Assembly: GCA_016744695.1 (NCBI GenBank)
Contig: JADGDV010000029.1
Location: 1-47,103 of the forward strand
Length of the DNA: 47,103 nucleotides
Source of the DNA: Hahellaceae bacterium
Lineage (GTDB): Bacteria; Pseudomonadota; Gammaproteobacteria; Pseudomonadales; Oleiphilaceae
Direction of reading: 5' to 3'
The position numbers and the translations under genes are program-made. Each line of letters opens with the position of its first letter. Position 1 is the first letter of the stretch. Below the pieces are notes generated by a model. The model was given only the letters and a program-made list of their open reading frames with translations, was not told the DNA's origin and did not search any database. Shown one piece after another: positions 21,425-40,952 of this stretch.

Positions 21425-21640
21425 TACTTAACTTCTCCAAAATTTTAAAAACGAGTACGACTGAACTCAAAACGGAGGCATTCTATCACAAGACATCGAT
21501 TACACATCAACTAAGTGAACAATAATTAATCACATTTAATAAAGCTAACAATTGACTTATTCCCCTTAAACTCTAGAATTCTGCCCTTATGATTAAAACC
21601 CATGAATTATCTTCACACATGCAAAGAAAGATCAGCCTCT

Positions 21641-22438: not shown

Positions 22439-22439
22439 C

Positions 22440-23630: not shown

Positions 23631-23893
23631 ATCACGTTCTTATTTTTCATTGAATATTATAATAAGTATAGACACTGAAAATAATTATGAGTGAGAACTC
23701 GATATAAAAGTAGAAAGTACAACGGAGCGAGAGCAGCTAAGCCATGTTAACTAGTATAAACAGGGCCAACAAGCCTACCAGCATGACCAGCCCAACAGTA
23801 TGCCCTAACTATTTTAAGCCCCGAATACGCCCTCTGGACGATGTGGTTACGCCCCCTCCACCTCTATTATGAACTCATCGGATCAGCAGATAG
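23631..23893. other. Divergent intergenic stretch, no gene recognised
   Basis: This is the left part of the 524-bp gap between the REC-EAL gene and the transferase start at 24155. I find only tiny frames: a rightward 29-codon ATG frame (ending at the TGA near 23870) and a leftward hydrophobic stretch of about 23 residues ending near 23737. Neither has a good ribosome site. Two successive rightward terminator-like hairpins begin at 23894, so an unannotated rightward transcript could end there. Confidence 0.3.
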
Positions 23894-23930
23894 AAACGAA
23901 GTAAGCCTTCAGGCCGTTTACTTCGTTTTT
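23894..23930 (+). terminator. Rightward terminator-like hairpin in the divergent gap
   Basis: AAACGAAGTAA (23894-23904) pairs with TTACTTCGTTT (23918-23928). An inner GCC-TTCA-GGC makes the stem longer, and a run of T follows. No rightward gene lies upstream, so it would terminate an unannotated transcript or shield the EPS promoter. Confidence 0.5.
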
Positions 23931-23978
23931 AACTTAGCTTTCCATAAGGGCCTCCCTACAATATTAGCCCTATCGTAT

Positions 23979-24023
23979 AGCGATAACATGATTCGGTTCG
24001 GCTTCATGTTATCGCTTTTTTTT
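23979..24023 (+). terminator. Perfect 13-bp hairpin with T8, inside repeat copy 1
   Basis: AGCGATAACATGA (23979-23991) pairs perfectly with TCATGTTATCGCT (24004-24016), followed by eight T. This is a textbook intrinsic terminator on the plus strand, yet no rightward gene precedes it. A weaker overlapping pairing TATCG (23971-23975) with CGATA (23981-23985) could compete with it. Confidence 0.7.
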
Positions 24024-24050
24024 GCTCCCTACTCCTCTATCGCTTACTAT
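24022..24050 (+). promoter_or_regulatory. Possible sigma70-type promoter for the EPS initiating transferase
   Basis: TTGCTC (24022-24027) and TACTAT (24045-24050) are 17 bp apart, a good fit to -35 and -10 boxes. The second repeat copy keeps the same layout (TTGCTC at 40890, TGCTAT at 40913) even though the sequence between has changed. It starts right after the terminator hairpin, so the element could be an insulated promoter. This is inference from spacing. Confidence 0.4.
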
Positions 24051-24154
24051 ATACAATACAAAAACTGAAAGATTTTACGTATCTAGTTAAGGCCATGATA
24101 TGACTCACTTTGGTGATCATATACTTAGCTACGGCTGTGTATAATGGAGTATTC

Positions 24155-25552
24155 ATGGATAAGGGATTAATCAGGCCTCATAGCAATGCCTTGGGGCTTA
24201 TTTATCGCACGATAGATGCATCTCAATTGTTGGCAATTTTATATATTTGCGTACTCTACCAGCATGGAGAGTTCAATATATCTTGGAGCCTCGTAGGACT
24301 CACATCAGTTTTACTTTTTTGGTTATATGCAGAAATTTTTTCTTTATACCGCTCTTGGCGGTCATCAAATTATACTGAAGTCGTTTTTTCTACATTAAGC
24401 ACATGGGCATTAACAGTCTCATCATTAATTGTACTGGGCTTTCTTTTTGAATTCAGTGAGCAGTTAAACAAAGATATCCTTCTTGTTTGGATTGCAATTA
24501 CATTCATTACACTCAATAGTTGGCGATGGTTTTTCAGACATTTCCTTTTTTGGTTAAGACGTAATAATTTTAACACCCGCTCAGCCATAATTGTTGGTAT
24601 AACAAAAAGTGGTCTTCAATTATTAGAAGAAATTAACAAGCATCCTCAAATTGGCATGCGCTTTATGGGCTTCTATGACGATCGCCCTCCTGAAAGAACT
24701 GATTACTCTGAATCAGACTATAAAGGTAAGGTTAATGAAGCCGTAGAGCTTGCCAAAAGCGGCCAGGTAGATCGCATCTATATAGCCCTTCCTCTATACG
24801 CCACTGAGAGGACAGATCATATCCTCGGCTTATTTGCTGACAGTACTGCAACGGTTTATATAATACCCAATTTATTTGAATATCAATTGCTTCATGCGCA
24901 ATGGCACAGTATTGGTAACGTTACCACTTTGAGCGTTCACGATAGTCCAATATACGGAATGGGCGGTTGGTTAAAACGAGCTGAAGATATTATATTGGCA
25001 ACGATTTTCGTTTTGTTACTCGCCACTCCAATGGTGATCATAGGGGCACTAGTAAAACTTACATCCAAAGGCCCTGCCTTATTTGTTCAACAGCGTTATG
25101 GGTTGGATGGTCAGAAGATTAACGTTTATAAATTTAGAACAATGACAACCATGGATAATGGCGATGTAATAAAGCAAGCGACAAAAAATGATAGTCGATT
25201 TACATTGATTGGTCGTTTTTTACGCTCCACCTCTTTGGATGAGTTACCGCAGTTTTTAAACGTGCTGCAGGGTACGATGTCAATCGTAGGTCCCAGACCC
25301 CACGCCATCGCGCATAACGAAGAGTACCGAAAAATAATACGAGGTTACATGCTACGCCATAAAGTGAAGCCTGGCATAACTGGCTGGGCTCAAGTTAATG
25401 GCTGGCGAGGGGAAACAGATACACTTGACAAAATGGAGTACAGAGTAAAATATGACCTTGAATATATAAACCGTTGGTCTCTGTTTTTTGATATCAAGAT
25501 CATTATATTAACCGTTGTTAACGGCACCTTAAGTAGCAAAAACACCTACTGA
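24155..25552 (+). CDS. Undecaprenyl-phosphate sugar phosphotransferase (WbaP/WcaJ type)
   Basis: A 465-residue polyprenyl glycosylphosphotransferase that starts repeat-unit assembly by placing a sugar-1-phosphate, usually glucose or galactose, on undecaprenyl phosphate. The N-terminal third has several membrane helices, and the middle (about 140-260) is a Rossmann-like domain with AIIVGITKSG. The catalytic C-terminal domain has a membrane hairpin, KFRTM, SLDELPQFLNVLQGTMSIVG, and PGITGWAQVNGWRGET. I set the start at 24155 because TGGAG sits 5 nt upstream; the frame stays open back to 24110 without such a site. It is convergent with wzx. Confidence 0.9.
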   Translation: MDKGLIRPHSNALGLIYRTIDASQLLAILYICVLYQHGEFNISWSLVGLTSVLLFWLYAEIFSLYRSWRSSNYTEVVFSTLSTWALTVSSLIVLGFLFEFSEQLNKDILLVWIAITFITLNSWRWFFRHFLFWLRRNNFNTRSAIIVGITKSGLQLLEEINKHPQIGMRFMGFYDDRPPERTDYSESDYKGKVNEAVELAKSGQVDRIYIALPLYATERTDHILGLFADSTATVYIIPNLFEYQLLHAQWHSIGNVTTLSVHDSPIYGMGGWLKRAEDIILATIFVLLLATPMVIIGALVKLTSKGPALFVQQRYGLDGQKINVYKFRTMTTMDNGDVIKQATKNDSRFTLIGRFLRSTSLDELPQFLNVLQGTMSIVGPRPHAIAHNEEYRKIIRGYMLRHKVKPGITGWAQVNGWRGETDTLDKMEYRVKYDLEYINRWSLFFDIKIIILTVVNGTLSSKNTY

Positions 25553-25570
25553 TCAAACGGTAATGGCTTC

Positions 25571-27007
25571 CTACTTAGAGGGGGCATTATCATCCCGATC
25601 AAAAAAACCAGACAATTGCTTAAGGTCATCTGAGGTGATTCCCTTAAGCAATACCATCGCAATTATATATACAAAAAAGCCTATTGAAATACCCAATGCC
25701 AGATTTGAAATCCAATACTGTGCGAAAATCATTACTGCACCAGCCAATAGTAACGGCGGTATTTTGAGCTCTACCAATGTAACCCCAATTATAGTGCGGG
25801 CGTAATAATAGCGAACAAGAACCTTCATAACCAAGGCGATTAGAGTCGCCAGCGCAGCCCCCAGGCTCCCAAGGTAAGGTATAAAATAAGCTAGGCTAAC
25901 CATATATACGACAAACGTTATAGCCAACACGCGCAACTCTAGCTTTTCTTGCTTGGCCGCCAATAAGACTATAGACAACAATTGATCTAAGGCGGTGCAA
26001 AATATGGCGCCACATAACAACTGAAACAAAAAGACTGATTCTGCATATTGAGCGCCAAATATTAAAGGTAACAATATTGGAGAAAACACGCATGTAGCTA
26101 TCGTAAAAGGCAGCCCTATACCGCTTACAATGCGAGTAATGATGCTAAACTGCTGAGTAAATTCATGACGATTGTGAGCATAAAGTCGGGAAAAAATAGG
26201 GAACAACACGACAGATATCATAGCAGGAACCATAACACCCACTTCATAAATCTTAAATGCGGCCGAGTAGATTCCTACATCATGCATGCCCTCTCCCCAT
26301 AACGAAAGAAAGATCAGGTCAAGCTTCCCGATACTCGCAGAAAAAACCAAAATACCAAAAAACAGCGGCGCCTGCTTAACCAACGTCTTCAACAAAGAAA
26401 TATCAAATAGTTTGGCTTCCCACTTAACAATTTTTTTCACCTGAATAAGGTATAAAGCAAGCGCGATCAAACGACCAAACAACAACACCCCGACTAATGA
26501 CGCTAATGGAGCATCTATAGCAATCAGTACGGCGCTTAACCCCGTTCGGATGATACTTTCGATAATGTTGACCTTTGAAATAAGGGTCATTTTTTCTCGA
26601 CCAATCAGAGCCGATTCAATACTGACAATGATCGCAGTAGGAAAGCAAGTTAGCGCTAATATAAAAAAAGCGTCATGCAATGGAGCCCCATAACCCCACA
26701 AACCGATAGCCACAACCATTAAAGCAATAATAAACGAGATACTAAGGGATAAGGCACTGCTTGCAACGATATATCGTCCTATATTGTCATGACAAGCCGC
26801 TATATCACGCGCTACAATAATGTGCAGTCCTAGCAAAGGAAACTGCATAAGAAAGATAAAATAAGTAAAGACTGTGCTGTACTCACCCAATCGCTCTGGC
26901 CCCCAACTGCGAGCAATCAAGCCAAACAAAGCAAAAGAAAAAACAGCGGTAAGAATGCGCATCAACGACAATGAAAATAAGTTTTTTAATGCTAGTCGAA
27001 AATTCAC
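25571..27007 (-). CDS. wzx: Wzx-like oligosaccharide flippase
   Basis: A 478-residue membrane protein with about 12-14 hydrophobic segments of the MATE-like polysaccharide translocase family. The N-terminus (FALFGLIARSWGPERLGEYSTVFTYF) and GSLGAALATLIA near the C-terminus are typical. It should flip the lipid-linked repeat unit to the outer face of the inner membrane. The start is a GTG that overlaps the wzy stop (GTGA). It is the last gene of the leftward EPS transcript. Confidence 0.8.
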   Translation of the reverse strand: MNFRLALKNLFSLSLMRILTAVFSFALFGLIARSWGPERLGEYSTVFTYFIFLMQFPLLGLHIIVARDIAACHDNIGRYIVASSALSLSISFIIALMVVAIGLWGYGAPLHDAFFILALTCFPTAIIVSIESALIGREKMTLISKVNIIESIIRTGLSAVLIAIDAPLASLVGVLLFGRLIALALYLIQVKKIVKWEAKLFDISLLKTLVKQAPLFFGILVFSASIGKLDLIFLSLWGEGMHDVGIYSAAFKIYEVGVMVPAMISVVLFPIFSRLYAHNRHEFTQQFSIITRIVSGIGLPFTIATCVFSPILLPLIFGAQYAESVFLFQLLCGAIFCTALDQLLSIVLLAAKQEKLELRVLAITFVVYMVSLAYFIPYLGSLGAALATLIALVMKVLVRYYYARTIIGVTLVELKIPPLLLAGAVMIFAQYWISNLALGISIGFFVYIIAMVLLKGITSDDLKQLSGFFDRDDNAPSK

Positions 27008-28521
27008 CGAGCAACCTGTATTGTATTTTGACGTGACAGTGTCAACTCTTCTTGAATTTGCTTTTTTTGCAACTTCATAACTGCGGTCACAAGGCCGAAA
27101 TAGACAAATAGTAACGTAATACGAACATCACCATAAAAGTGGTCAAATGCAAAAAATATTACTTGCCCAAAAATACCTGCAGACAAACCCAGCCCCACGG
27201 CAAAATAGACAGGGTCAGTCCAATATTTAAACCGTATGACCGCAGTAAAAAAACTAATCAACATCAATACGAAGATCACGATACCGATCAGTCCAAGCTC
27301 AGCCATCGTTAGAAGATATTTATTGTGCACTACTCCTTTTAACAACTCCTCTTGATACCACGGGGATAGTACGGCAAACGATTTGGGAATATTATCTTTA
27401 GCCGCTTCGCGATAACCGCTAATTCCAACACCTGTCAGAAAGTTTCTCTTTATAACCAACGAGGCATGATCCATCATTACAAAACGGGACTCAGTCGACC
27501 GTTGATCACTCTCTGTTATACGCAGCAACGCCGCAGGGAAAGCAATAACTACGCAGATCATTCCTACAATACCCAAAACAGCCAATCTTGAGATCAATTG
27601 CGCGGTAACAATCCCTCTCATGTAACCAAACCCCAGCACAAAAAAGATGGCGAATGCAAACGATATCCAACCACCGCGAGATAAAGTCACAACAATGGTA
27701 GCAACGCCTAAAATAAAGAATAACACCACACCAAACCAGACTGGGCGACCAATACGTTTTACTCCTAACACTGCCAAAGTAAATAATAACGGCAGTACAA
27801 ACACCAGATAATCTGCAAGCATATTAGGGTGCCCCATAAAACCAGAGGGACGAAAAATATGCATGCCGCCAGCGTTCTCAAAGACTAGCTTTGTTCCCAT
27901 TGTTGCCGTCTTTGTCCCTTGTATTTCAAACGCACCACCTGTTGCAATCTGTAAAATCACCAAAACAAGATGTAAGGCAATCGCGCCACCTAAACCAAAG
28001 AGCGCTAGTCTTAATTGTTTCGGCCTTTGTATAAAATCTGCGATCAACACGAAAATAAGAAGATAACGAGTGTAGTTTATGCACATGAGAATAGAGGAAA
28101 GTTTATCTTCTGCATGCCCTATGGTAAACCAACACCACAAAACATACAGAAGTGGCAAAAGATACATTTTATTCCAGCGTATTCTCTGGCGATTCAGTAC
28201 CATCTTTTCAACTAGCCATATGCCCAGCAATGGCAAAAAAAAGATATCCATGAGCGTAATTGAAAGGCCTGGCACATATACTCCACCTTTCGCAATGAGT
28301 GCTTTATTAATATCAATCGAGCTAGTTAGCATCATGCCAATAAATAGAAAGTCCTTGGCATTGCCAGACCAAAGAACGGCAGCAACAAATCCCAAGCCCA
28401 TGAATAGCAAAACCAGCCAAGTCATACTTAGCTCTGAAAGCACCACAATCATCAACGACATAAACAATGCCATGATGATATGCCGTAAGCCTACCGAGTT
28501 ACTCTGCCCTAATCGATCCAT
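27004..28521 (-). CDS. wzy: Wzy-like O-antigen/EPS polymerase (O-antigen ligase family)
   Basis: A 505-residue protein with about 12 membrane segments and a long periplasmic loop at about 330-400. The region FRPSGFMGHPNMLADYLVFVLPLL, followed by TLSRGGWISFAFAI, is characteristic of the Wzy_C/O-antigen ligase family. It should join repeat units at the periplasmic face. The stop overlaps the wzx start by 4 bp, and the BY-kinase gene ends 6 bp upstream, so the three are tightly coupled. Confidence 0.8.
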   Translation of the reverse strand: MDRLGQSNSVGLRHIIMALFMSLMIVVLSELSMTWLVLLFMGLGFVAAVLWSGNAKDFLFIGMMLTSSIDINKALIAKGGVYVPGLSITLMDIFFLPLLGIWLVEKMVLNRQRIRWNKMYLLPLLYVLWCWFTIGHAEDKLSSILMCINYTRYLLIFVLIADFIQRPKQLRLALFGLGGAIALHLVLVILQIATGGAFEIQGTKTATMGTKLVFENAGGMHIFRPSGFMGHPNMLADYLVFVLPLLFTLAVLGVKRIGRPVWFGVVLFFILGVATIVVTLSRGGWISFAFAIFFVLGFGYMRGIVTAQLISRLAVLGIVGMICVVIAFPAALLRITESDQRSTESRFVMMDHASLVIKRNFLTGVGISGYREAAKDNIPKSFAVLSPWYQEELLKGVVHNKYLLTMAELGLIGIVIFVLMLISFFTAVIRFKYWTDPVYFAVGLGLSAGIFGQVIFFAFDHFYGDVRITLLFVYFGLVTAVMKLQKKQIQEELTLSRQNTIQVAR

Positions 28522-28527
28522 AGTTAT

Positions 28528-29187
28528 CTAACCTAGTTTTTTATAGAAAAAATCAGGTATATACTTTGGACGCTGATTGAGAATGACCCCTAGATAATTA
28601 TCCTTACCAACATTGAATTCAGACATTCCTTCTTTCACTAAATCCCGACTTGTTTTATCACCCTTAATCACCAAAACAACGCCATCTGCACGATGAGCCA
28701 ACGAATTAGCACCAGACTTCAATAGTGAAGCGCCATCAATTAGAACGAGGTCATAATGCCCAGATAAGTCATCTATTAGCTGCTCAACCCTTTCATGCAT
28801 ATACAGCAAGCCTGGTTTACATAGAGTCCCTGCAGGCAAGAAATCAAAACCGTGCTTATCTACTTTTACAATCGTATTTAAAATGTCAGTGGTGTTATTG
28901 GAGAAATAATCCGACAGACCTTTGCCTTTACCTTTAGATAACAATGATGGGGCATCCATATTCCCGTCGATCAATAACACTCTATGGACGGATGAGTTCA
29001 CCAATGACTTTGATAGAGCCTGAGAAACAAACGACTTACCTTCACCGGCAATCGCACTGGTGATATAAATTATCTTTGGGACAGAAGCTTTGCCATCATG
29101 TGAACTATTAATGTCCGCTTGGCGGGCTTCCAGACGAGATAATATCTTTAAAGCAATACGCAGAAACTTATCCATTAAACTATTCAT
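28528..29187 (-). CDS. Separate BY-type tyrosine kinase (CpsD/CapB/EpsG-like) with degenerate Walker A'
   Basis: A 219-residue cytoplasmic ATPase, the stand-alone kinase partner of the chain-length protein encoded just upstream. The Walker A is AIAGEGKSF with K51, and the Walker B is DLVLIDG with D151. The Walker A' reads LLIDGNMDAP (72-80), where the family has DxDxR; the second Asp and the Arg are missing. The C-terminus ends in a short tyrosine-bearing tail (PKYIPDFFYKKLG), not the usual tyrosine-rich cluster. It may be weakly active or act as a regulatory subunit. The ATG at 29187 is preferred over a TTG three codons earlier. Confidence 0.78.
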   Translation of the reverse strand: MNSLMDKFLRIALKILSRLEARQADINSSHDGKASVPKIIYITSAIAGEGKSFVSQALSKSLVNSSVHRVLLIDGNMDAPSLLSKGKGKGLSDYFSNNTTDILNTIVKVDKHGFDFLPAGTLCKPGLLYMHERVEQLIDDLSGHYDLVLIDGASLLKSGANSLAHRADGVVLVIKGDKTSRDLVKEGMSEFNVGKDNYLGVILNQRPKYIPDFFYKKLG

Positions 29188-29208
29188 TAAATACAACTCT
29201 TTTTTAAA

Positions 29209-30543
29209 TCAATGCTTGAAGAAATATTCCATTGAACTAGGGCTTTCTTCAGGAATTTTACCGATCAACTCAAGACCTAGATGCTTAGCCACATCAGAAT
29301 CATCACGGATACTATTGTCTAAAAACTCTCGAATACCGGCGAGCATTACGCCAAACAACAGCCCCACGATCGACCCGAATATGCCAAGTAAGAGATCTTT
29401 TTTCCAACTAGATTCGCGAGGAGCGATAGGCGGTTCAATTATTTCGCGTGAGCTGATATTGTGCTCATTCATATCAATAAATAGTTCGATCTCAGAAAGG
29501 CGCGTTTTAAGCTCCAAGTAGACAGATTCAGCCAATTCAAGATTACGTTCGAGTACAGCTTGTCGTGCATCATTACTCGCGTAAAGTTCTAACTCTGCCT
29601 GTAATCGCGCACGCAATTTTTGTATTGAACGAGTCAGTTTGCTTACATTATCATCACCTGGCTGGAAGGTATCGTTAAGGGCTGACAACTCGAATTCAAG
29701 CTCAATAATTTGTTCCTTTATCAACTGAATCGTCGATAAATCCCCTGGTGTTGTTAATAACTGTGCACTTTTATCAACTACAACCGGCCCATTACTCTTA
29801 TTCGATAAAAAGATCCTCAGCTCTGCTTGCGCTGCCGTTAGTTCCTTATAGGTTTTTTGAACCTTTGCATCAACAATGCTATAGGCTAACTCAGCTGCTT
29901 TCTGATTCACTTTGATATCATAATTACGATAGTACTCCAACGTTTTCTGAAGAATCTGTTGAGCTATAAGCGGATTTGGTGATTTAAGTGAGATAAAAAT
30001 AATATTGGAGTTTGTATCGGCGCTTTTACTGAGGACCGGTGCAACCATAATGCTTTTAACAAGCTCTTTAACCGTATCATTAAAGCCGTTTTTTTCCGGA
30101 TCAGGCTGAAAGCCGAGCGCTCGCATTATCGGGTCGGTAATATAAAAACCAACAGGCTGCAACAAATGCACCAGAGGCTTGTGATAAACCTGATCCCACG
30201 TGATGTCCAAATCTCTTATAACTTCTTCAGCAATTACCCGCCCTTCGATCTTCTGCATTTCTGTTTCGATCTTACGTTTAACTGGGTCACTGGTCATTTG
30301 TTCTTTAACCGAGGAAACACCGGTAAAGAATGACGGAGTACTAGGCATCTCTGTGTGAATGAGCACCTTCGCCGAGGTCTCGTAAACCGATGGTATGAAC
30401 CAAAGCATCATATTTACAGACACAGAAATAATTAGGAAAACAGTAATAATGAGCGCTTTATGCTTGAAACAAAGTGCAGCAATATCCTTACCAGAATAGG
30501 ATTTAAACTGATCTTGTTGATCAACTTCAAAAATAGGCGTCAT
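29209..30543 (-). CDS. Wzz/GumC-family polysaccharide chain-length determinant
   Basis: A 444-residue inner-membrane protein. One helix near residues 30-50 (LIITVFLIISVSVNMMLWF) and one near 385-410 (LLLGIFGSIVGLLFGVMLAGI) enclose a long periplasmic coiled-coil region (KLTRSIQKLRARLQAELELY). The proline-rich EPPIAPRESSWKK before the last helix is the family signal. It lacks a fused kinase domain, which is supplied by the next gene. I start it at the ATG at 30543; a TTG four codons earlier overlaps the wza stop. Confidence 0.85.
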   Translation of the reverse strand: MTPIFEVDQQDQFKSYSGKDIAALCFKHKALIITVFLIISVSVNMMLWFIPSVYETSAKVLIHTEMPSTPSFFTGVSSVKEQMTSDPVKRKIETEMQKIEGRVIAEEVIRDLDITWDQVYHKPLVHLLQPVGFYITDPIMRALGFQPDPEKNGFNDTVKELVKSIMVAPVLSKSADTNSNIIFISLKSPNPLIAQQILQKTLEYYRNYDIKVNQKAAELAYSIVDAKVQKTYKELTAAQAELRIFLSNKSNGPVVVDKSAQLLTTPGDLSTIQLIKEQIIELEFELSALNDTFQPGDDNVSKLTRSIQKLRARLQAELELYASNDARQAVLERNLELAESVYLELKTRLSEIELFIDMNEHNISSREIIEPPIAPRESSWKKDLLLGIFGSIVGLLFGVMLAGIREFLDNSIRDDSDVAKHLGLELIGKIPEESPSSMEYFFKH

Positions 30544-30547
30544 AAGT

Positions 30548-31651
30548 CTACTCAATTTTATTAGTAACAGTGGTTTTCTGGTCTTGTGCCTTCAGCTCAT
30601 ATACAAAACTAAGCGAGCTGTTTCGCAGGGCTGGCACCAAATCGTATAAGTACTGGTCGAGGTAATCTTTAACGTGTGCAATAGTGCTTTTCGGTACGAT
30701 AACAACATCATAGGGATGCAATTGAAAATCCCCTACAAAGGAAGTCATGATTCCACCACCATCAATCGTTTCTTCGCTATCAACCCAATCTGTTGTAAGA
30801 TCACGTATAATTAATTTTGGTTCCTGATCAGGCTCACGACGCAATATAGCAACCTGTTCGGTTTCTCCACTTAACTTAGCTCCACCGGCTTTAATAATCG
30901 CCTGAATCGCAGTAACGGGGCCTGTGTAATCAAAGAATATAGGTGAAACCACCTCGCCACCCACAAAAATTTGCATCGGCGTTGTGCGCCTCATAATAAC
31001 GACGGCATCATCGAGGTTTTTAAATGGCGGGCGCTGTTTACTACCATCAACATAGTAATAGTCAGACGTATATTTTCGTACAATAACAACCAGCATAGGG
31101 TTGTTTAGCTTGCTTGTATAAAGTTCCGTAAGTTCACGTTCCAGGGCCTGAGGTGTTTTGTCTTCAACATCGACCTCTCCGATCAACGGTAAAGAAAATT
31201 TCCCATCTGGGCGAACAACCGCTAATTCATCTAAACCTTTTTGATTTGAAAATCGAATCTCTATTTCATCGCCAGCAGTGATTCGATATTCCTTCTTCAC
31301 TTTCTTCTGAGAGTTTCTAGACTGGGATATTTCATAATATCTATTACGAATTTCCTCCTGCAACTGATCAGGTGTTTTACCGGCGGCCCTCATCGTTCCA
31401 ATAATAGTGAGTGATACATTGCCATCAGGGCGGATAGTATATCGATCGTTTAATAGAGGTTTATATGGAAACTGCACCTCCAACTCATCACCCGGTGCCA
31501 CGTAGTAAAAGCTTTGAACAACCGAAGTAGAAGCCTCCTTTTGTGACGCTATTTTAGGTGCATCTATCGTTAATTCCCTATTTTCCACTTGCGCACAGGA
31601 CGCTAACAGTCCCGGCAAAAAGAATATCATCCACTTTTTAATGTTTTTCAT
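30548..31651 (-). CDS. wza: Wza-like polysaccharide export lipoprotein
   Basis: A 367-residue outer-membrane export protein. It has a lipoprotein signal with LLASC and the lipidated cysteine at C19. Two poly-export modules follow in tandem (YYVAPGDELEVQF ... RPDGNVSL and YRITAGDEIEIRF ... RPDGKFSL), then an SLBB-like segment (IFVGGEVVSPIFF). It would form the outer-membrane exit for the polymer. The duplicated poly-export module is clear from the sequence itself. It is the first gene after a 188-bp gap in the leftward series and may have its own promoter. Confidence 0.88.
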   Translation of the reverse strand: MKNIKKWMIFFLPGLLASCAQVENRELTIDAPKIASQKEASTSVVQSFYYVAPGDELEVQFPYKPLLNDRYTIRPDGNVSLTIIGTMRAAGKTPDQLQEEIRNRYYEISQSRNSQKKVKKEYRITAGDEIEIRFSNQKGLDELAVVRPDGKFSLPLIGEVDVEDKTPQALERELTELYTSKLNNPMLVVIVRKYTSDYYYVDGSKQRPPFKNLDDAVVIMRRTTPMQIFVGGEVVSPIFFDYTGPVTAIQAIIKAGGAKLSGETEQVAILRREPDQEPKLIIRDLTTDWVDSEETIDGGGIMTSFVGDFQLHPYDVVIVPKSTIAHVKDYLDQYLYDLVPALRNSSLSFVYELKAQDQKTTVTNKIE

Positions 31652-31839
31652 AAGGTGACTCTAAATAACAAATTCAAATTAAGCTAATATACGTTTATAA
31701 CTACGCGTGCTCGGCCTACTACATTGCAGAACATCAATTTTGATCCATGACTTACCTACCTCCAACATCTTTGTTATCTCGCTATGCAGAGAAATACAAT
31801 CTACAGACAATGTAGTTATTTTAATAAGAAAAGCGATTC

Positions 31840-32394: not shown

Positions 32395-32449
32395 TTCAAA
32401 CTCCTATTCAATACAATTAGTTATAATTTTCCATTAGGAGACTACTTTT

Positions 32450-33004: not shown

Positions 33005-33012
33005 TTAATATT

Positions 33013-34206
33013 TTAACTTTTAGCATTGCTGCGAGGCAATAAGATACTCGAATCTTCATTTGTTGTCGCAGTGCCAGTACTCGTTGAAAGTAATTTTTCA
33101 AAGTGTTGAAGATACTCGCCAAGCACTTTTTCCCAAGTAAACTCAGCTTTAAATCGATCTTTACTGGCAATACTTAATTCATCACGCAATAGCGTATTAT
33201 CAATAAGCGCTTGTATGTTATTTGAGCACTGATCAATAGTCGAAAAGTACAACATTTCATCGTTGGTAACCCAGCGATTAAATGCATTATCATGGGCGAT
33301 AACTGCTGAACCAGTTCCCAAAGATTCGACTAAAGAAGGGTTAGTACCCCCAACTCTATGGCCATGGATATATCCAAGTGAGTAATACCTCAAGGCAGCA
33401 ACATATCCTTGCTCATAAATGGCACCAGGAAAGACAACTTCATCAGAAGCTACGGCTTCTATTTTTTGGTGGTAGGGTGAATTTTCAAAATCAAATACAC
33501 CTAATACAACCAATTTTTTACCTCGTTCCTGCTGTGAAAAGGCCGCTACAATTTCGTAAATTGAGTTTTCACTAACTGGCCGTGCAATAACCACAAAATA
33601 GTCATTGGGCTTTAAACCCAAGGTATCAATAAATCGGTTATCTGCTTCTACCAGTTCATTACGGCTTATATCATCAGCACCATACGCGATAGTTGTTATT
33701 TTGGAGTCACTCACTCTGGTTGACAGGTGTCGAGCTATTTCCGGGTGGTCTGCGATTAATTCATTGCCAAGTTTACAGGTTAAAATCTCATTCAAATAAA
33801 ACCAGACTTTGACCGGCCATGGCCATTTATCGCGCTTCCACTCCAAACCATCCATATTAATGGTTGTGTGGTGGCCGGAGAAACGAAAATACGCGTTTAA
33901 GAACCCCGTATTATACCCTAGATTCAATATGAAGAATTTTTGCTTAACCGCATGTTTTACACACTTATAGTCATAAGCAATAGTATGCAATGGAGTGTCG
34001 CCGGCAACATAAACATCTACAAGGTTTACGCCTCTCCATTCACGCTCTTCGATCGGTGATTTGCCTTCTTTCTGACAATACACGGTCACTTTCCAGCCAT
34101 GTTCAACTAAATACAAAGCAAAGCGCTCGGCGAATGTTTCAAAGCCTCCATGGCAAGCAGGTAAACCCCTTGTTCCAAGTATCGCTATATGTTTCTCTTT
34201 ATTCAT
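33013..34206 (-). CDS. Glycosyltransferase with DUF1972 N-terminus (GT4-like)
   Basis: A 397-residue cytoplasmic glycosyltransferase. The N-terminus IAILGTRGLPACHGGFETFAERF is the DUF1972 signature, and residues about 180-370 form a GT4-type GT-B domain. GYIHGHRVGGTNPSLVESLGTG holds the donor-binding E-x-x-G region. Relatives are often rhamnosyl- or related transferases acting on lipid-linked oligosaccharide. The ATG at 34206 is preferred over a TTG eight codons earlier, with AGGAG 11 nt upstream. Its stop is 8 bp from the convergent acyltransferase stop. Confidence 0.82.
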   Translation of the reverse strand: MNKEKHIAILGTRGLPACHGGFETFAERFALYLVEHGWKVTVYCQKEGKSPIEEREWRGVNLVDVYVAGDTPLHTIAYDYKCVKHAVKQKFFILNLGYNTGFLNAYFRFSGHHTTINMDGLEWKRDKWPWPVKVWFYLNEILTCKLGNELIADHPEIARHLSTRVSDSKITTIAYGADDISRNELVEADNRFIDTLGLKPNDYFVVIARPVSENSIYEIVAAFSQQERGKKLVVLGVFDFENSPYHQKIEAVASDEVVFPGAIYEQGYVAALRYYSLGYIHGHRVGGTNPSLVESLGTGSAVIAHDNAFNRWVTNDEMLYFSTIDQCSNNIQALIDNTLLRDELSIASKDRFKAEFTWEKVLGEYLQHFEKLLSTSTGTATTNEDSSILLPRSNAKS

Positions 34207-34245
34207 GAGACCTACACTCCTGCTTTCCAATATCGATAACGTACC

Positions 34246-34944
34246 CTAGGGCCGCTGAAGAATGATCATATAATCAGAGTGAGTCAAATCTCGATTCGCT
34301 CCAAAAAGCGTTCTAGATACAGCCCCCACAAAACCAAATAAAATATCGACTATTTTATGTTTTTCCCGAAGATAAACAGGAACAGGGCCCTCATATTTTT
34401 TCATGTAAGGGACTGTGAGCCCTTTAGCTAACGCCGCTTTTTTAATTTGGTCAGGCCACATGGCTTTTCTGAGATAAGTTTTGAAGGGCCCCTGATCATC
34501 AATGCCTGCTCGCTTATCTCCGATCACGTAACGATAAAATGCAACCTGTAACGAATGAGATAATAACTTAGTGACAATACCTTTAATCGATACAATATTA
34601 GGCGCAGCCAACACAACAATGCCTTTATCTGCGACTGATTGAAACAAATTTTCTAGGGCAGCTTCAGGCTTATCCAGATGCTCTAAGACATCCCAAGAAA
34701 CAACAACGTCATACTCACCATGACCAAGAGGGTAAGACTGTAGGTCACCTACAATTTTTTCGTTTAACTGCTCATTCCTGTTCAACTGTTTCTCAGATAT
34801 ATCAATACCTACCATTTTACCAGTATTAGGTATATTAATATGACTTACTGAGCCACAACCCGCCTCTAGTACCGTTAGATTATCTCGACCACTTAGTAGC
34901 TGGTTGATCTCTACTTGCAATAGTTGATTAGCAACACTCATCAT
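34246..34944 (-). CDS. SAM-dependent methyltransferase
   Basis: A 232-residue class I methyltransferase. The SAM-binding motif I is VLEAGCGSVSH, and motif II contains MVGIDISEKQL. The acidic post-motif VVSWDVLEHLDKPEAALEN is typical of type 11 (ubiE-like) enzymes. In this setting it probably methylates a sugar of the repeat unit, but the substrate is not readable. It begins where the glycoside hydrolase stops (TGATG overlap), so the two are coupled. Confidence 0.8.
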   Translation of the reverse strand: MMSVANQLLQVEINQLLSGRDNLTVLEAGCGSVSHINIPNTGKMVGIDISEKQLNRNEQLNEKIVGDLQSYPLGHGEYDVVVSWDVLEHLDKPEAALENLFQSVADKGIVVLAAPNIVSIKGIVTKLLSHSLQVAFYRYVIGDKRAGIDDQGPFKTYLRKAMWPDQIKKAALAKGLTVPYMKKYEGPVPVYLREKHKIVDILFGFVGAVSRTLFGANRDLTHSDYMIILQRP

Positions 34945-36530
34945 CACATCTCGACAGTAATTAAATTAATGGAATGAGGCGCCAGCATGACCAAATTTCC
35001 CTTTGCTTGTCCTGCCGTTGTTGTCCAGGTCATTTTTTTAGCCTGAGACACTGAAAAATAGTTTTTAGCGGTTAACGTTTCTGTGACTAGTTTTTTTACC
35101 GACTTATTACCAAGAGCAAGCGAGAGGTTGGCGGCTTTTATAGGATGCTTATTTACCACCCATAACTTTAACGTGTCATTCCCATCCTCTTTCTTGATCA
35201 CTGTGCCAAGTGAGGAGATAAAGCCTACACCTTGCTGCGCAGTTAAAACACCGGTCTGCTGTATGTTAAAAGATGGCGCTGCTACTGACGTTTCAACGTG
35301 CTCCCCATCTATCATTTCGTGGAACTTGCTTAGCACTTTATAGGCCGCTCGCTCACGCCCCTGCTGATCAATCGCACCAAACTGCCAATTACCCGTTAAT
35401 GACCAAAAATTAGCCATTAAAATATCAGGCTCCTGAGATAATAGACTTAGCAAATCAGCAATATACATGGCACCTGTCAACGTTTGAATATACTCATCCG
35501 TCTTGCCTCTACCGATTGAAAACATAGAGTTCATCTCGGTAATCGCTATAGGTATGTTGGACTCTTTTCGATACATTTTTAGTTGTTTTCGCGTGCTTTC
35601 AAGATCTTTACGCACAACATTTGTAGACGCCATGGACGCCAAATAGATCTGTTCTGGGTTTGAAGGTAAGTCTGCCCAAATAAAAGGGAAGTAGGTATTA
35701 TGCACTGCTGCAAAATCAATTTTCCCAGAGAAATTTTCAAGTACTACTTTATTAAAACCAGGCATAGGGGTAACGGGCATACCATCAAAGTCATCACTTC
35801 GCAGAGGTATTCCAACTTTAATGGAAGGATCTGCCTTCCTAACCGCCTTCACTAAAGCGTTCGCCTTTTTCGCATACTCCTGTGGAGTAATCGCCAGCTC
35901 TTTTTTATTGTCATCTATTAAATAGGGCTCATTGCCAATTTCCAAGAAACCAACCTTTGGCAGTGGTTTACCATTATCCGTAATGCGCTCGAAGTTTATT
36001 TTCTTAATCCAGTCAATTGTTTCCGAAGGGGGGGCCGTAATAACATTTGCGGTGAGAATTGGCTCAGCGCCAGTCAGCTGACAAAGTTTCAAAAACTCTT
36101 TTGTTCCAAACAAAATGGTATCTTCGCCATCACCATGAAACCGGCTTGATTTCTTGCGATCTTTTACACTACCCATCCCATGCTTCCATCGGTACAGATC
36201 TGCCAAAGACCCCCCAGGATAGCGCAGCACTGTGGGCTTGAGTTCAAGAACTTTTTCCAGCATGGCTGGAGAGAAGTCTGTCGTACCTTTTTTCAGTAGT
36301 TCATCACCTCGATCAACCCATTGAATATTATTACCCAATAAACGCTTATTCGACGGATAAGTTACGTCCAAGTTAATCGTTAGAGTTGCCTCGTAGGGGG
36401 CGTTACCTTTAGGTAGGGCTTGATACGCAGAGGCCGCCTGAAGTGAACTTTCCTTACAAGCAGTCATCGATAACAATACCATCACTACAATCGAACGCGA
36501 GACATTCGAATTAAACATCATTTTTCTCAT
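34944..36530 (-). CDS. Lipoprotein glycoside hydrolase of the arabinofuranosidase-like (GH-A clan) type
   Basis: A 528-residue exported enzyme. Residues 1-25 are a lipoprotein signal (VVMVLLSMTAC, lipidated C25). A TIM-barrel catalytic domain (about 60-400) has LLGNNIQW, LRYPGGSLADLYRW, acid/base E201 in EIGNEPY and nucleophile E332 in AITEMNS. A C-terminal beta domain follows. Similar GH51/GH39-like enzymes release arabinose or related sugars. A lipidated hydrolase inside an EPS locus probably trims or turns over the cell's own polysaccharide. The ATG at 36530 fits the signal peptide; an earlier ATG at 36560 would put ten polar residues in front. Confidence 0.72.
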   Translation of the reverse strand: MRKMMFNSNVSRSIVVMVLLSMTACKESSLQAASAYQALPKGNAPYEATLTINLDVTYPSNKRLLGNNIQWVDRGDELLKKGTTDFSPAMLEKVLELKPTVLRYPGGSLADLYRWKHGMGSVKDRKKSSRFHGDGEDTILFGTKEFLKLCQLTGAEPILTANVITAPPSETIDWIKKINFERITDNGKPLPKVGFLEIGNEPYLIDDNKKELAITPQEYAKKANALVKAVRKADPSIKVGIPLRSDDFDGMPVTPMPGFNKVVLENFSGKIDFAAVHNTYFPFIWADLPSNPEQIYLASMASTNVVRKDLESTRKQLKMYRKESNIPIAITEMNSMFSIGRGKTDEYIQTLTGAMYIADLLSLLSQEPDILMANFWSLTGNWQFGAIDQQGRERAAYKVLSKFHEMIDGEHVETSVAAPSFNIQQTGVLTAQQGVGFISSLGTVIKKEDGNDTLKLWVVNKHPIKAANLSLALGNKSVKKLVTETLTAKNYFSVSQAKKMTWTTTAGQAKGNLVMLAPHSINLITVEM

Positions 36531-36552
36531 ACTACGGTGACTCTCTGCTAAT

Positions 36553-37386
36553 TCAGTCATTCTTTTCAACCAAAGCCATCATCCAAGGATTAAATCCGGT
36601 AGATAAAAGTCCTTTAGGTAAATGTTTCACGTACAATTCAGCAAGTTTCCGGAAAGGCCCCGGTACACGAGAAAAGTGTACTAAGCCTTCAACACTCTGG
36701 CCTTGCATTGAATAAGGTAACCCTTCAAGGTAATGGTGAATATCTGGATACCCCCACAAGAAGTTTTCACCCCAAGTTTTGTGGACAGTTGAGCCAACTT
36801 TATCTGTCAAACGCTGCTCCCACGCGGTACAACGAGAATCTGGACCGTGAGCCGTGTCGATCGGAAAGTTCCGATTAGGCCCACCAATCAGCATGCGCCC
36901 TCCTGGCTTGACGATACGAAATACTTCCCGTAACCACTCTTTACGAATCTCGTGATAATTGGGCAAGCGATCTGAGTGCCCATTTGATGTGCCTACATGT
37001 TCAATAACACCGAGAGTAAAAACAAAATCCACACTATTGTCAGCAAAGGGAAGTTCAAAGCGATATGGGTCCGCCAAAAAAAACCGTTCCCTATCAAGAT
37101 TCAACTTTTCCCAATATCGACTCAGTGTAACGAGATCCACACCATATGCCTCGTAACCTTCCTTGCCAATGGTATCGACCATGGTGCCAACACCACAACC
37201 AATATCAACAACAGTTTTGGCTTTATATTTTTTTAAATATGGCAAAATATAATTATGAGTTTTACCGACATTCACTTCGGCCTGGTCATTAGCATACTCA
37301 TCAGTAGTAGAATTAAAAAGCTCTTCTACCTGCCCTTCCATCATGGTGCCAAAACCTGACACTCTCTGCTTAATCGGTTTTAACAT
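36553..37386 (-). CDS. SAM-dependent methyltransferase
   Basis: A 277-residue class I methyltransferase. Motif I is VVDIGCGVGTMVDTIG, motif II is YGVDLVTLS, and FVFTLGVIEHV lies in the region that closes the SAM pocket. It also has a longer C-terminal part (WGENFLWGYPDIHHYLEG) of unknown role. It starts on the last base of the glycosyltransferase stop (TAATG), and the hydrolase gene follows at once. It is unlike the other methyltransferase of the locus outside the SAM-binding core, so the two likely act on different positions. Confidence 0.8.
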   Translation of the reverse strand: MLKPIKQRVSGFGTMMEGQVEELFNSTTDEYANDQAEVNVGKTHNYILPYLKKYKAKTVVDIGCGVGTMVDTIGKEGYEAYGVDLVTLSRYWEKLNLDRERFFLADPYRFELPFADNSVDFVFTLGVIEHVGTSNGHSDRLPNYHEIRKEWLREVFRIVKPGGRMLIGGPNRNFPIDTAHGPDSRCTAWEQRLTDKVGSTVHKTWGENFLWGYPDIHHYLEGLPYSMQGQSVEGLVHFSRVPGPFRKLAELYVKHLPKGLLSTGFNPWMMALVEKND

Positions 37387-38489
37387 TAGGCCACAATCTC
37401 CTTAAACACCTGTAATGTTTTTTCAGCCGCATTTTTCCAGCTAAATTGCTTAGCACGCTGAAATCCTTTCTCAACTAATTTATCGCATGCTGTCGTATTA
37501 TTAGCTAAATGTTCAATCGCCAGCATCATTTCATTTTCACTGTATGGGTCAATATAGTACGCAGCATCGCCTCCAACTTCTGGTAAACATGATGCAATCG
37601 AACTTATTACGGGAGTGCCACATGCCATCGCCTCAACAAGAGGCAAGCCAAATCCTTCATAGAGGGAAGGATACACAAACAAGTTAGCTTTGTTATATAA
37701 GGCAACCAACTCATCATCTGAAACATAACCCGTAATATGGATATGCTCTTTTATTCCTAGAGATTCAACCTCATCAAAAATAGCGGCACCTCCCCACCGA
37801 AGCCGACCAACCAATACAAGATCAAGGTCTATTTTCCCTGCTGAGCGCAGTATTGAGTATGCTCTAATTAATCGCTCTATATTTTTCCTTGGCTGAAGGT
37901 TACCTACAGCCAGAATATAAGGTTTATCCAAAGCAAAGCGTGCCAGTTTCTGAAGGGTAAGCAGCTCGTCACCCAATACACGAAACTGATCACTAACGCC
38001 ATTATAAGTGACCGTTACTTTCTCTTCCGGGACCCTATACTTCTCAACTATCTGCTGTTTTGAATACTCAGAAACGGTCAAAATATGCTGACTCTTACGA
38101 GCCGAATACGGTATTAATAATTTCATCCGCCGGCATTCCATTGGATTAAAATACTCAGGATGAAACTCGTACGATATATCATGAATCGTCACCGCTGTAG
38201 GGCAGCACGTTATTGGCGGTATCACATATTGAAAATGAGCTACATCTATCTTTTCTTTGTGTAACTGATAAGGAAATACAAAGGGAATTCTGAATATAGA
38301 CTGGGGTGGCGTAATCCGAGTCTGTGGCACCCGAGCATCTACCTTCATTTTATCTTCATGCGTATAAAATAAATGAAAATCAGTATCGTCAGAATCAAGA
38401 TCTAATAAATTATCTACCAGGTTGCGGATATATGTTTCATTACCCGTTTGCTGTTTCCCTACTGAATGAATATCTATCCCTACTTTCAT
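37386..38489 (-). CDS. GT4-family glycosyltransferase
   Basis: A 367-residue GT-B enzyme. It begins [24 protein letters not shown]. In the C-terminal half, [15 protein letters not shown] and [27 protein letters not shown] contain the donor-binding E-G-F-G-L-P-x-x-E motif of GT4. It should add one sugar of the repeat unit to the lipid carrier in the cytoplasm, but the donor cannot be told. I start it at the ATG at 38489, in line with the family N-terminus; the frame stays open to 38516. It lies 6 bp after the GT2 gene stop. Confidence 0.87.
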
Positions 38490-38494
38490 ATTTC

Positions 38495-39475
38495 TCACTG
38501 CTTTTGCTGTAAACAATCGTTAAGCTTTCGTTCTTGCTGTATTATTTTTTGGGTGATATGAATATAACTCAGACTCGATTTGGCTTTTTCAGCATAATGC
38601 TTCTTACGAGTGAAAAAACCCAATATGCTATAAAGTCCCCACCGAACCCCAAAACCCAAAATAGTAATAAAATCTACTAACCAGACCTTCTGCTTACCAT
38701 GAAGCAAGGTATAAAATGAGCGTAGTCCTTTAAGGGAGCTTAGCAATATATCCCCCTCCTGACTTTTCATGCTTGCACCCTGAACATGTACAACCGATGC
38801 AGCAGGAGTATAAACAATACGCCAGCCACCACTCTTAAGGCGGTGACACAACTCCATATCTTCACCGTACATAAAAAAACGATCGTCAAATAATTTATTA
38901 TCTAGAGCCTCAGATCTTAGTAACATACAAGCACCTGAAACCCAATCAACATCAACATCAACATCAACATCTGTCTCAAGGTATAGTGACTGCGTGCTAC
39001 CAAAATAGGATAGAAGACGAGAGATGAATAAATAATGCCCAGTGATATTCATGATATTTGGAAAGGAACCACCAGTCCAACGTTGCAGTGAATGATCAAC
39101 ATTAAGTAGCCTTGCCCCCCAAACAGCTACATTTTTCTGCTGATCCGCATGATCTAATAGTTTATCAATCGCATTATTTATCGCCATCGCATCAGGATTG
39201 AATAACAATACATATTCTCCCCGACACTGATCTAACACTTGGTTATTTGCTTTTCCAAAACCCACGTTTTCTGTATTAGCAACAAGGTGTACATCAGGAA
39301 AGTGCGCTTTAACCATATCAACACTGCCATCCGATGAATCATTATCCACTACAAATACTTCAAACTGCTCTTTAGGCATAGCGGTTTCCCGATAAACACT
39401 ATCCAAGCATTCTTTCAAAAGCTCTCTTACATTCCAATTAACTATAATAATGGATAGGCGCTTACGATTACTCAT
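38495..39475 (-). CDS. GT2-family glycosyltransferase
   Basis: A 326-residue GT-A enzyme similar to rhamnosyltransferases. SIIIVNWNVRELLKECLDSV and VVDNDSSDGSVDMV are at the N-terminus, NTENVGFGKANNQ and LLFNPDA hold the nucleotide and metal sites, and GEDMELCHRLKSGGWRIVYTP holds the catalytic aspartate. The C-terminal part has a hydrophobic helix. GGGAGG precedes the ATG with good spacing. Residues about 168-178 are four tandem Val-Asp units coded by a hexanucleotide repeat, an oddity in the acceptor side of the fold. Confidence 0.87.
   Translation of the reverse strand: MSNRKRLSIIIVNWNVRELLKECLDSVYRETAMPKEQFEVFVVDNDSSDGSVDMVKAHFPDVHLVANTENVGFGKANNQVLDQCRGEYVLLFNPDAMAINNAIDKLLDHADQQKNVAVWGARLLNVDHSLQRWTGGSFPNIMNITGHYLFISRLLSYFGSTQSLYLETDVDVDVDVDWVSGACMLLRSEALDNKLFDDRFFMYGEDMELCHRLKSGGWRIVYTPAASVVHVQGASMKSQEGDILLSSLKGLRSFYTLLHGKQKVWLVDFITILGFGVRWGLYSILGFFTRKKHYAEKAKSSLSYIHITQKIIQQERKLNDCLQQKQ
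38945..38971 (-). repeat. Hexanucleotide repeat (ATCAAC on the plus strand), 4.5 copies, within the GT2 gene
   Basis: Four full and one half copies of ATCAAC lie inside the GT2 gene and encode alternating Asp and Val. Since the unit is six bases, slippage would add or remove two residues at a time without shifting the frame. Confidence 0.8.
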
Positions 39476-40598
39476 TCAACCTCCCTGGTTCAACAACAGA
39501 CTGGTAGTATTTTTCTTGCTGGAGAGCAATTTCATCCCAGCTATATTGACTGGCCCACAACCTGTTTATTTTTGCATCAGTAAGTAAATTTTGATGCGAA
39601 CGCTTTAGTAATTCCGATATACCCACTGAGTACTGATCAATATCAAATGGCCGCACCTTCACACAACAACTAGAAGCAACCTCGTTCATAGGAGCCTTAT
39701 CAAACAGCACAACACTTTTGCCCGCAGCGCAGGCTTCAGTAATAACCATACCAAATGTTTCTTCACGAGAAGGCACGCACACAAACCTACATTTCTGCAT
39801 TAATTCGTATCGCTGTTCTCCCGATATCTTTCCTATTAAAGATACCTCATGCTCAATGCCTAATGATAATGCAAGCGCATTAATCTGAGGCTCTTGAAAA
39901 CTATGCCCTGCCAAAACCAGCGGTATACGTTTTTCCCTAGGAATCTTCGCATATGCCTGAAGTAATAAATCAACACCTTTTTGATTGGTATCTACGCGAC
40001 CAACAAATAATATATAGTCACCAAATTCATCTAAGCACTTAAAAAAACCGGCATCGATGCCGTTCGGTATTATAGATGTGCTTGCTTTACTATTACGTTG
40101 CAGAATAGTGTTTTGCATAGATTGTGTAAGCACAACAAAGTGCTTATAGAGCTTCACACCGTAACGTTCCCCTAAATAAAAAGGGAGTTTATATTGCCTA
40201 GACAACGCTTCAGCAAAAAACCATTGAACAGATGCTATCGTCGGAGCTTTAGAGAATAAGGGGTTTAACGTGGCAGACATTGGCGGCATAAAGTCCTCTA
40301 CCAAGAGATCGTAATCAAACTGCCTTATAGCCCTAGGTAGACTGAAGAAAAAAGTAATGTGATGCGAAGAGCCATGGTCTCCGATCTTTCTCCCAAGCCT
40401 TATATAGCGTACATTATCCCTGATTAATTCCTGAGTAGATCCTTCAAATGTAGGTGTTAGCACGGTAATTTCGTGTTTATGGGATAATCGCCTATAAATT
40501 TCAAAATTACGGCGAGGCCCCCCACCACTCATAGGGTTATCAATATCATCAGGGTCAATGTGGAGAATTTTAATGGAGTACCTCCATGTATTACACAT
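39468..40598 (-). CDS. GT4-family glycosyltransferase, first gene of the leftward EPS transcript, start uncertain
   Basis: A GT-B enzyme of 368-376 residues. PMSGGGPRRNFEIYRRLS at the N-terminus, FVGRVDTNQKGVDLLLQAYA in the middle and VPSREETFGMVITEACAAGKSVV near the C-terminus carry the GT4 donor-site E-x(7)-E pattern. The outer limit given is an ATG at 40598 with no ribosome site. An ATT at 40574 has GGAGG exactly 6 nt upstream and gives the typical start MKILHIDPDD, so I favour ATT as the true start (cds 39468-40574). It overlaps the GT2 gene by 8 bp and begins the long leftward series that ends at 33013. Confidence 0.82.
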   Translation of the reverse strand: MCNTWRYSIKILHIDPDDIDNPMSGGGPRRNFEIYRRLSHKHEITVLTPTFEGSTQELIRDNVRYIRLGRKIGDHGSSHHITFFFSLPRAIRQFDYDLLVEDFMPPMSATLNPLFSKAPTIASVQWFFAEALSRQYKLPFYLGERYGVKLYKHFVVLTQSMQNTILQRNSKASTSIIPNGIDAGFFKCLDEFGDYILFVGRVDTNQKGVDLLLQAYAKIPREKRIPLVLAGHSFQEPQINALALSLGIEHEVSLIGKISGEQRYELMQKCRFVCVPSREETFGMVITEACAAGKSVVLFDKAPMNEVASSCCVKVRPFDIDQYSVGISELLKRSHQNLLTDAKINRLWASQYSWDEIALQQEKYYQSVVEPGRLNE

Positions 40599-40689
40599 CT
40601 ATTCAAGTTAATCATAAAACATATACTTGTACTTGCTACTTGCACTAAGCAAAGAAGCCCCCTATATATAATCCTTCTTATAGAGTTTT

Positions 40690-40704
40690 GTAACGTTATG
40701 TTAC
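40690..40704. promoter_or_regulatory. Inverted repeat GTAAC-N5-GTTAC upstream of the leftward EPS genes
   Basis: GTAAC (40690-40694), five bases, then GTTAC (40700-40704). It sits about 90 bp upstream of the leftward glycosyltransferase gene in the 354-bp divergent gap. Apart from this palindrome and the long direct repeat, the gap holds nothing I can name. A regulator site is possible but not shown. Confidence 0.25.
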
Positions 40705-40792
40705 GTCATCCTTCCATTAATTAGTAGCCCATTTCAGTACTCACGTCCACTATAGAAACACTCACTATTATGATCGTGTGAACCTAAAACCT

Positions 40793-40926
40793 GTTTTTAA
40801 CTTAGCTTTCCATAAGGGCCTCCCTACAATATTAGCCCTATCGTATAGCGATAACATGATTCGGTTCGGCTTCATGTTATCGCTTTTTTTTGCTCCCCAT
40901 TCTTCTATCGCTTGCTATACTCAATA
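40793..40926 (+). repeat. Direct repeat copy 2, upstream of the hybrid kinase gene
   Basis: Positions 40793-40897 are identical to 23925-24029, and similarity fades out by about 40926. It ends some 30 bp before the start of the hybrid histidine kinase gene, as copy 1 ends shortly before the initiating transferase gene. Both copies lie between divergently transcribed genes and point toward the rightward gene. Confidence 0.95.
40847..40891 (+). terminator. Perfect 13-bp hairpin with T8, inside repeat copy 2
   Basis: AGCGATAACATGA (40847-40859) pairs with TCATGTTATCGCT (40872-40884), followed by eight T. There is no rightward gene upstream; the neighbouring gene on the left runs leftward. It must therefore end an unannotated transcript, act within a leader, or serve as an insulator. 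Confidence 0.7.
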
Positions 40927-40952
40927 AAAATCAATGATTGTTTGAGTAATCA

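Follow-up and report, generated by a model that had tools for sequence, protein, structure and literature searches.

The direct repeat bracketing an exopolysaccharide cluster in a Hahellaceae bacterium is a duplicated predicted small RNA gene

Introduction

The stretch of DNA analyzed here, called the window, comprises 47,103 nucleotides from a Hahellaceae bacterium (assembly GCA_016744695.1, contig JADGDV010000029.1) and carries an exopolysaccharide (EPS) gene cluster with a long direct repeat at either end. What is this repeat: a means of losing the EPS genes, the mark left by their arrival, or a gene in its own right? A sequence-only reading had favored the first two answers, and had taken the perfect identity of two non-coding blocks as a sign of recent duplication, gene conversion or strong selection. 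Our analysis identifies the bracket as a duplicated gene for a predicted small RNA (sRNA), and not as an excision repeat specific to EPS. The window lies on contig C66 of a draft genome of 4.07 Mb in 77 contigs (G000), which was compared with four congeners (G001 to G004), giving a genus set of five genomes.

Results

The repeat holds the 3′ portion of a predicted sRNA gene

Comparison of the window with itself recovered the two blocks exactly as first described: positions 23925 to 24029 (copy 1) and 40793 to 40897 (copy 2) are identical over 105 nt, lie on the same (+) strand and are spaced by 16,868 bp. The repeat can be extended to 24062 and 40930 (138 nt, 95% identity). It is the sole direct-repeat family of at least 25 nt in the window (exact seed of 14). 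With copy 2 removed, the longest exact direct repeat of the window is 21 nt, and 20 mononucleotide shuffles gave values of 14 to 17 nt. The bracketing of the EPS locus was likewise confirmed: 15 EPS genes (24110 to 40598) lie between both copies, two antisense open reading frames (ORFs) that overlap EPS genes (28079–28531 and 29090–29521) being excluded from this count.

Far from being anonymous non-coding DNA, the repeat corresponds to the 3′ portion of a conserved, predicted sRNA gene. Its + strand shows a small hairpin (hairpin 2), then a strong hairpin and a terminal U tract. The complete gene at copy 1 spans approximately 23826 to 24029 on the + strand. It begins with a promoter box, TACGCCCTNNGGACGATNNNNNTACGCCC (23826–23854), followed after 10 nt by a −10 element, TATTAT (23865–23870); a TANNNT motif stands at the same distance in most related loci. 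The predicted transcript would run from about 23876 to 24023, with the U tract of the intrinsic terminator at 24016 to 24023. Folding and alignment place a 5′ hairpin (HP1), whose loop region contains the conserved UUCAGGCC, at 23889 to 23931, and hairpin 2, AGGGC-CUCCCUACAAUAUUA-GCCCU, at 23947 to 23971. The loop CUCCCU of hairpin 2 is C-rich and anti-Shine-Dalgarno-like. Copy 2, as shown by self-match, box search and alignment, keeps hairpin 2 and the terminator and lacks both the promoter box and HP1.

The RNA structure and the promoter are conserved

A 12-row alignment (A2) was used to derive a consensus structure of 31 pairs, in which 94.3% of the cells are paired. Nine of these pairs are changed on both sides, five of them among the 14 pairs of HP1. 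Shuffled alignments gave a mean of 4.5 such pairs, and only 1 of 500 shuffles reached nine; in slid controls 32.6 to 49.3% of the cells were paired and 0 to 4 pairs were changed on both sides. The z-score of the fold was −3.85 for 105 nt and −6.43 for 150 nt. The sRNAs of the genus designated A and B differ in sequence between species, and the structure is kept in the alignment.

The promoter box was then searched as a pattern (TACGCCCTNNGGACGATNNNNNTACGCC, at most two mismatches) with the reversed pattern as control. It was found in all five genus genomes, at three sites each, and in 132 of the 163 genomes of the family (Oleiphilaceae/Marinobacter group), the control giving no match in either set. 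The box precedes copy 1, the copy on contig C42 described below and the copies of the congeners, except the kinase-side copy of G003. In a collection of 84,980 genomes 86 stretches matched, and 80 of these loci (L033–L112) were examined. Judged by their record titles, they belong to Marinobacter (64), where the box is also present in culturable species such as M. nauticus and M. algicola, Hahella (4), Oleiphilaceae (3), Oleiphilus (2), and Halospina, Halovibrio and Mangrovitalea (1 each). The other four come from Vreelandella (2), a Halomonas metagenome-assembled genome (MAG) and a Phycisphaerales MAG; the latter locus (L066) is probably a chance match and was kept in all counts on the 80 loci.

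The search pattern fixes none of the following features. A −10-like TANNNT stands exactly 39 nt from the start of the box in 77 of the 80 loci. An exact TGTGAN6TCACA, which we take to be a CRP site, occurs at most 90 nt upstream of the box in 47 of them; it was not seen upstream of copy 1 in the window. Four loci were too short for scoring of TTCAGGCC and of the terminator. Among the 76 scorable loci, TTCAGGCC was found within the first 110 nt in 68, and a terminator, scored without a shuffled control, in 74.

At the usual site of the family a gene for a MalT-like regulator of the LuxR type lies upstream of the sRNA, and a helicase gene converges on it from downstream. The helicase carries the Pfam domains Helicase_C_2 and DEAD, and we presume it to be DinG-like. 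Motif tests recognized the upstream neighbor in 49 of the 80 loci, the downstream neighbor in 61, both in 43 and neither in 13, some loci reaching contig ends. At the A copies of G001, G003 and G004, half-sites recur with an 11-bp period (TACGCCC-4-TACGCCC-4-GACGATT-4-TACGCCC), which presumably would suit a regulator of the OmpR/PhoB type, as a guess. The MalT-like neighbor is another candidate activator, also by guess.

Copies of the sRNA gene within the genus

A search of the window's genome revealed a third copy on another contig (C42:24417–24516; 100 nt, 100% identity). It equals copy 1 without mismatch over 140 nt (23885–24024), that is, nearly the whole predicted transcript including HP1. 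Three copies are too few for an insertion sequence, a miniature inverted-repeat transposable element or a generic dispersed repeat, which were ruled out; the internal inverted repeats are the stems of the terminator and of the hairpins. The repeat is also not EPS-specific, as copies exist elsewhere without EPS genes. A diverged, box-bearing paralogue is present on contig C71, and one such diverged copy was found in each genome of the genus. By blastn, A/B-type copies number three in G000 (one truncated), three in G003 (one without the box) and two each in G001, G002 and G004. Each of these genomes thus contains at least two highly similar copies. Outside the genus, a match was obtained in 1 of 33 genomes (G021), which brings the total to 6 of 38 including the window's genome.

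The A and B sRNAs lie at different sites with different neighbors. Their transcripts are 98.6% identical in G000, compared with 76.5% in G001, 89.3% in G002, 80.7% in G003 and 87.3% in G004, and the A and B promoters of G000 visibly differ. The B sites of the four congeners are mutually syntenic, and the C42 copy is located elsewhere. In G000 the right part of the congeners' B site is on contig C52, with no sRNA within the 3.3 kb read, while its left neighbor is on C47; the site has thus been rearranged or was split by the assembly. Relocation together with recent gene conversion best accounts for the perfect identity of the copies, C42 included. Among the causes that had been proposed for this identity, gene conversion is favored; selection alone would not readily account for an identity restricted to one species. 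Beside the C42 sRNA, two adjacent ORFs (L021:8952–9621), judged by eye, resemble the two parts of a single solute-binding protein interrupted by a frameshift; the smaller ORF had no match in Pfam.

Gene order at the hybrid-kinase site

Copy 2 is followed by a hybrid histidine kinase gene (40953–43604, + strand; Pfam domains MASE2, HisKA, HATPase_c and two REC), and a kinase of this type adjoins an sRNA copy in all five genomes of the genus. Between the two, at 40913 to 40921 (+ strand), lies TGCTATACT, a putative extended −10-like promoter of the kinase; the same nine letters occur downstream of the kinase-side sRNA in G001 to G004. A 54-column alignment revealed what appears to be a degenerate copy of this kinase promoter region (TTACTATATACAAT; 24045–24058, + strand) after copy 1 and ahead of the first EPS gene. 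This indicates that the duplication extended beyond the repeat.

The window carries, from left to right, ion channel, REC-EAL regulator (22440–23630, − strand, by Pfam), intact sRNA, EPS cluster, truncated sRNA, kinase and prepilin. Three of the four congeners, G001, G002 and G004, show at this site the state that the sequence-only reading had proposed to look for, a single sRNA copy, with no EPS gene in the 20 kb read. The order in G004 is ion channel (91% identical to that of the window), two further genes, CTI, a 200-aa gene, a 324-aa gene, sRNA, kinase and prepilin. The ion channel of G001 (88%) is followed by 822-, 200- and 369-aa genes, sRNA, kinase and prepilin. In G002 the ion-channel gene is more divergent (69%) and points the other way; next come 826-, 200- and 331-aa genes, sRNA, kinase and prepilin. 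Here CTI of G004 was named from Pfam, and the three genes of G001 and G002 were equated with those of G004 by size and place. Close orthologues of the CTI and MarC neighbors of the relatives were not found in G000 (best identities of 42% and 27%).

The site of G003 is doubled as well, around other genes. Its order is a Yip1-domain gene, a phytase-like gene (both by Pfam), sRNA, the phosphonate (C-P lyase) operon phn, a second sRNA, kinase and MarC, the last two not being separated by a prepilin gene; the Yip1-domain and phytase-like genes align with the 200-aa and 324-aa genes of G004. The phn operon is thus bracketed by two direct sRNA copies (L013:4964–16922). The phn block of G004 and G002 is found past kinase and prepilin but ahead of MarC, further genes intervening in G002. 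DNA alignment of G003 with G004 revealed collinear blocks in swapped order: G003 3242–14346, matching G004 13463–24565 (phn), precedes in G003 the sRNA and kinase blocks 14763–15219 (G004 9964–10421) and 15526–17676 (G004 10728–12882). A stretch of 416 nt between phnC and the second sRNA (L013 14347–14762, reverse-complement coordinates) has no match in the G004 region and sits at the junction of the rearrangement. The second sRNA copy of G003 begins just upstream of the −10 element, and the kinase-side copies of both doubled sites, in G000 and G003, lack the box.

Since phn is found beyond the kinase in G002 and G004, the bracket of G003 arose by local rearrangement and not by acquisition. 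The simplest account is a tandem duplication of sRNA, kinase, prepilin and phn with reciprocal losses, or a transposition of the sRNA-kinase block. The sRNA is the only part that G003 has kept twice.

The EPS cluster at another site

The EPS cluster, delimited by domain scans, is collinear with a cluster at another site of G004, where all 15 EPS genes are present with 66.6 to 91.3% identity. No A/B-type sRNA is near that site, the nearest box, that of the diverged copy, being about 34 kb away. G001, G002 and G003 lack the Wzy of the EPS cluster. The chromosomal location of the cluster therefore varies between species. In G004 the EPS genes are immediately followed (L148; G004:C3, about 250.2–251.9 kb) by a paralogue of the GH39-like protein of the cluster, 62% identical to that encoded at 34944 to 36569 of the window. 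Elsewhere in the window, positions 12558 to 14182 appear to hold a HipA-like kinase gene and a small helix-turn-helix partner gene, which we take to be a pair of the hipBA type.

Discussion

These data make it likely that copy 1 is a real gene for the predicted sRNA, and that its truncated duplicate is the footprint of a rearrangement. An activator bound at the box, 10 nt ahead of the −10 element, would drive the intact copies. These would most likely produce a trans-acting sRNA that base-pairs with mRNAs through two exposed segments, UUCAGGCC in most of the family and CUCCCU in most A/B-type copies. Copy 2, placed ahead of the kinase's own promoter, is most likely silent. We suppose that the sRNA/kinase junction was duplicated and that the EPS cluster came to sit between the halves, either by duplication with reciprocal loss or by homologous integration at the sRNA; recent gene conversion would have made the copies and C42 identical. 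As for the order of events, the EPS cluster may have entered at the sRNA, or the block of sRNA and kinase may have shifted past the EPS genes.

Several observations weigh against this interpretation. The same alignment served both to derive and to score the consensus structure, and the distant row of G021 aligns poorly in HP1. With up to two mismatches allowed, the box is missing from 31 of the 163 family genomes, and TTCAGGCC from 8 of the 76 scorable loci, including all four of Hahella. The counts of −10 elements, CRP sites and terminators have no random-locus control. A generic scan for promoters and terminators on the sRNA strand detected neither element at either copy, which its loop limit of 8 nt and the missing −35 hexamer probably explain; on the opposite strand it reported one promoter-like site at copy 1, none at copy 2 and a terminator at neither. 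Rfam 15 gave no match for eight related loci (E≤1), nor for either copy within window positions 22000 to 42000 (E≤5). Among the 38 start regions of the window, the RNA showed no preferential pairing with that of the first EPS gene or of the kinase: for the HP1 loop and hairpin 2, respectively, the first EPS gene ranked 14 and 23 and the kinase 24 and 32, and three and one of the 38 regions passed the 5% level of letter-shuffled queries, so that we propose no target. For the window's species, the rearrangement model is built by analogy with G003.

The assembly has to be considered as well. A short-read assembler could be misled by identities of 105 nt and 140 nt, and three near-identical 100-nt copies in a draft of 77 contigs carry some risk of misassembly. 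The order from the ion channel to the kinase in the window matches that of G001 and G004, and G003, a single-contig genome, independently has the same doubled architecture.

It is possible, albeit with modest probability, that the EPS cluster is an excisable unit, lost by RecA-dependent deletion between the copies to yield EPS-minus variants with one sRNA gene. The geometry permits it, with 105 exact nucleotides in the same orientation precisely around the cluster, and the single-copy, EPS-free site does exist in G001, G002 and G004. Any direct repeat of 105 nt would presumably allow such a deletion, however. Moreover, the single-copy relatives have other left neighbors (the CTI-size gene of 822 to 826 aa, then the genes of 200 aa and of 324 to 369 aa) than the REC-EAL regulator, so they are not simple deletion products. 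Loss of the EPS genes between the copies is thus possible but secondary; the product would resemble the relatives, with one intact sRNA in front of the kinase.

Did the cluster then arrive as an island, by integration at the sRNA gene's 3′ end? Islands integrated at tRNA or tmRNA genes have the intact RNA gene at one end and a partial 3′ direct repeat at the other, and the window shows exactly this topology, in that the repeat contains the sRNA 3′ end and the intact gene stands on one side. The unoccupied site of three congeners, the 15-gene cluster elsewhere in G004 and the absence of Wzy from three of the four congeners also fit. A precedent is the PrrF1/PrrF2 locus of P. aeruginosa, where, according to PMC8373256, sRNA copies form direct repeats around islands that encode XerD, and the authors suggest loss of islands by recombination between the PrrF repeats. 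The window resembles that locus in having sRNA copies as direct repeats around intervening DNA. However, no integrase, transposase or recombinase domain was detected in any of the 15 EPS proteins (E≤0.001). The guanine-plus-cytosine content of the cluster (41.0%) equals that of its flanks (41.6% and 39.6%), again unlike the tRNA/tmRNA islands. The sRNA had no match in plasmid and phage collections or in viral contigs, and the DNA bracketed in G003 is a resident neighbor in two congeners. The proposal that the locus was acquired as a mobile island is accordingly not borne out, and we regard it as unlikely.

A cis-acting role of the repeat, as leader or attenuator of the first EPS gene and the kinase, is very improbable and was rejected. 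Both window copies are sense, ahead of a gene and terminator-ended, but the kinase has its own conserved TGCTATACT. The C42 copy precedes an oppositely oriented gene and the end of the DinG-like helicase gene runs towards the sRNA in 61 of the 80 box loci, and hence C42 and most copies of the family type do not share a downstream gene.

Among known regulators, the sibling sRNAs PrrF1/PrrF2, OmrA/B, AbcR1/2, Qrr and CsrB likewise exist as several highly similar copies per genome, in tandem or dispersed, that have been attributed to gene duplication (PMC4211561), and a duplication of csrB is described in PMC6262261. The present family shares with them the several highly similar genes per genome. 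It presumably differs in sequence and promoter, and the window copies, one of them truncated, have 16.8 kb of EPS genes between them. CyaR is an sRNA activated by CRP, and the TGTGAN6TCACA of the family suggests a likeness in the promoter region, which does not extend to copy 1 of the window. A function of the CsrB/RsmZ type was set aside, no repeated GGA loops, the motif that we take to mark that type, being seen by eye. In the literature, judged by titles and the openings of abstracts, no publication on this RNA was recognized. As far as these searches go, the sRNA family and its doubling around two different modules are new.

The sRNA family is a more valuable result than the bracket that led to it. 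An anonymous repeat becomes a testable gene for a predicted sRNA, one without an Rfam match in the stretches scanned. A bracket of this kind need not mean an acquired EPS island, which calls for caution. In two species the same sRNA site is doubled, each time around a different, unrelated module, and the sRNA gene marks a site of rearrangement. It is conceivable, but doubtful, that the gene acts as a recombination hub, whose family members relocate within the chromosome, undergo conversion among themselves and are duplicated time and again at the kinase site, placing different modules such as EPS and phn between copies, where they may be deleted or transferred. If true, such a hub would tie the copy number of a regulatory RNA to whether surface and nutrient modules are gained or lost.

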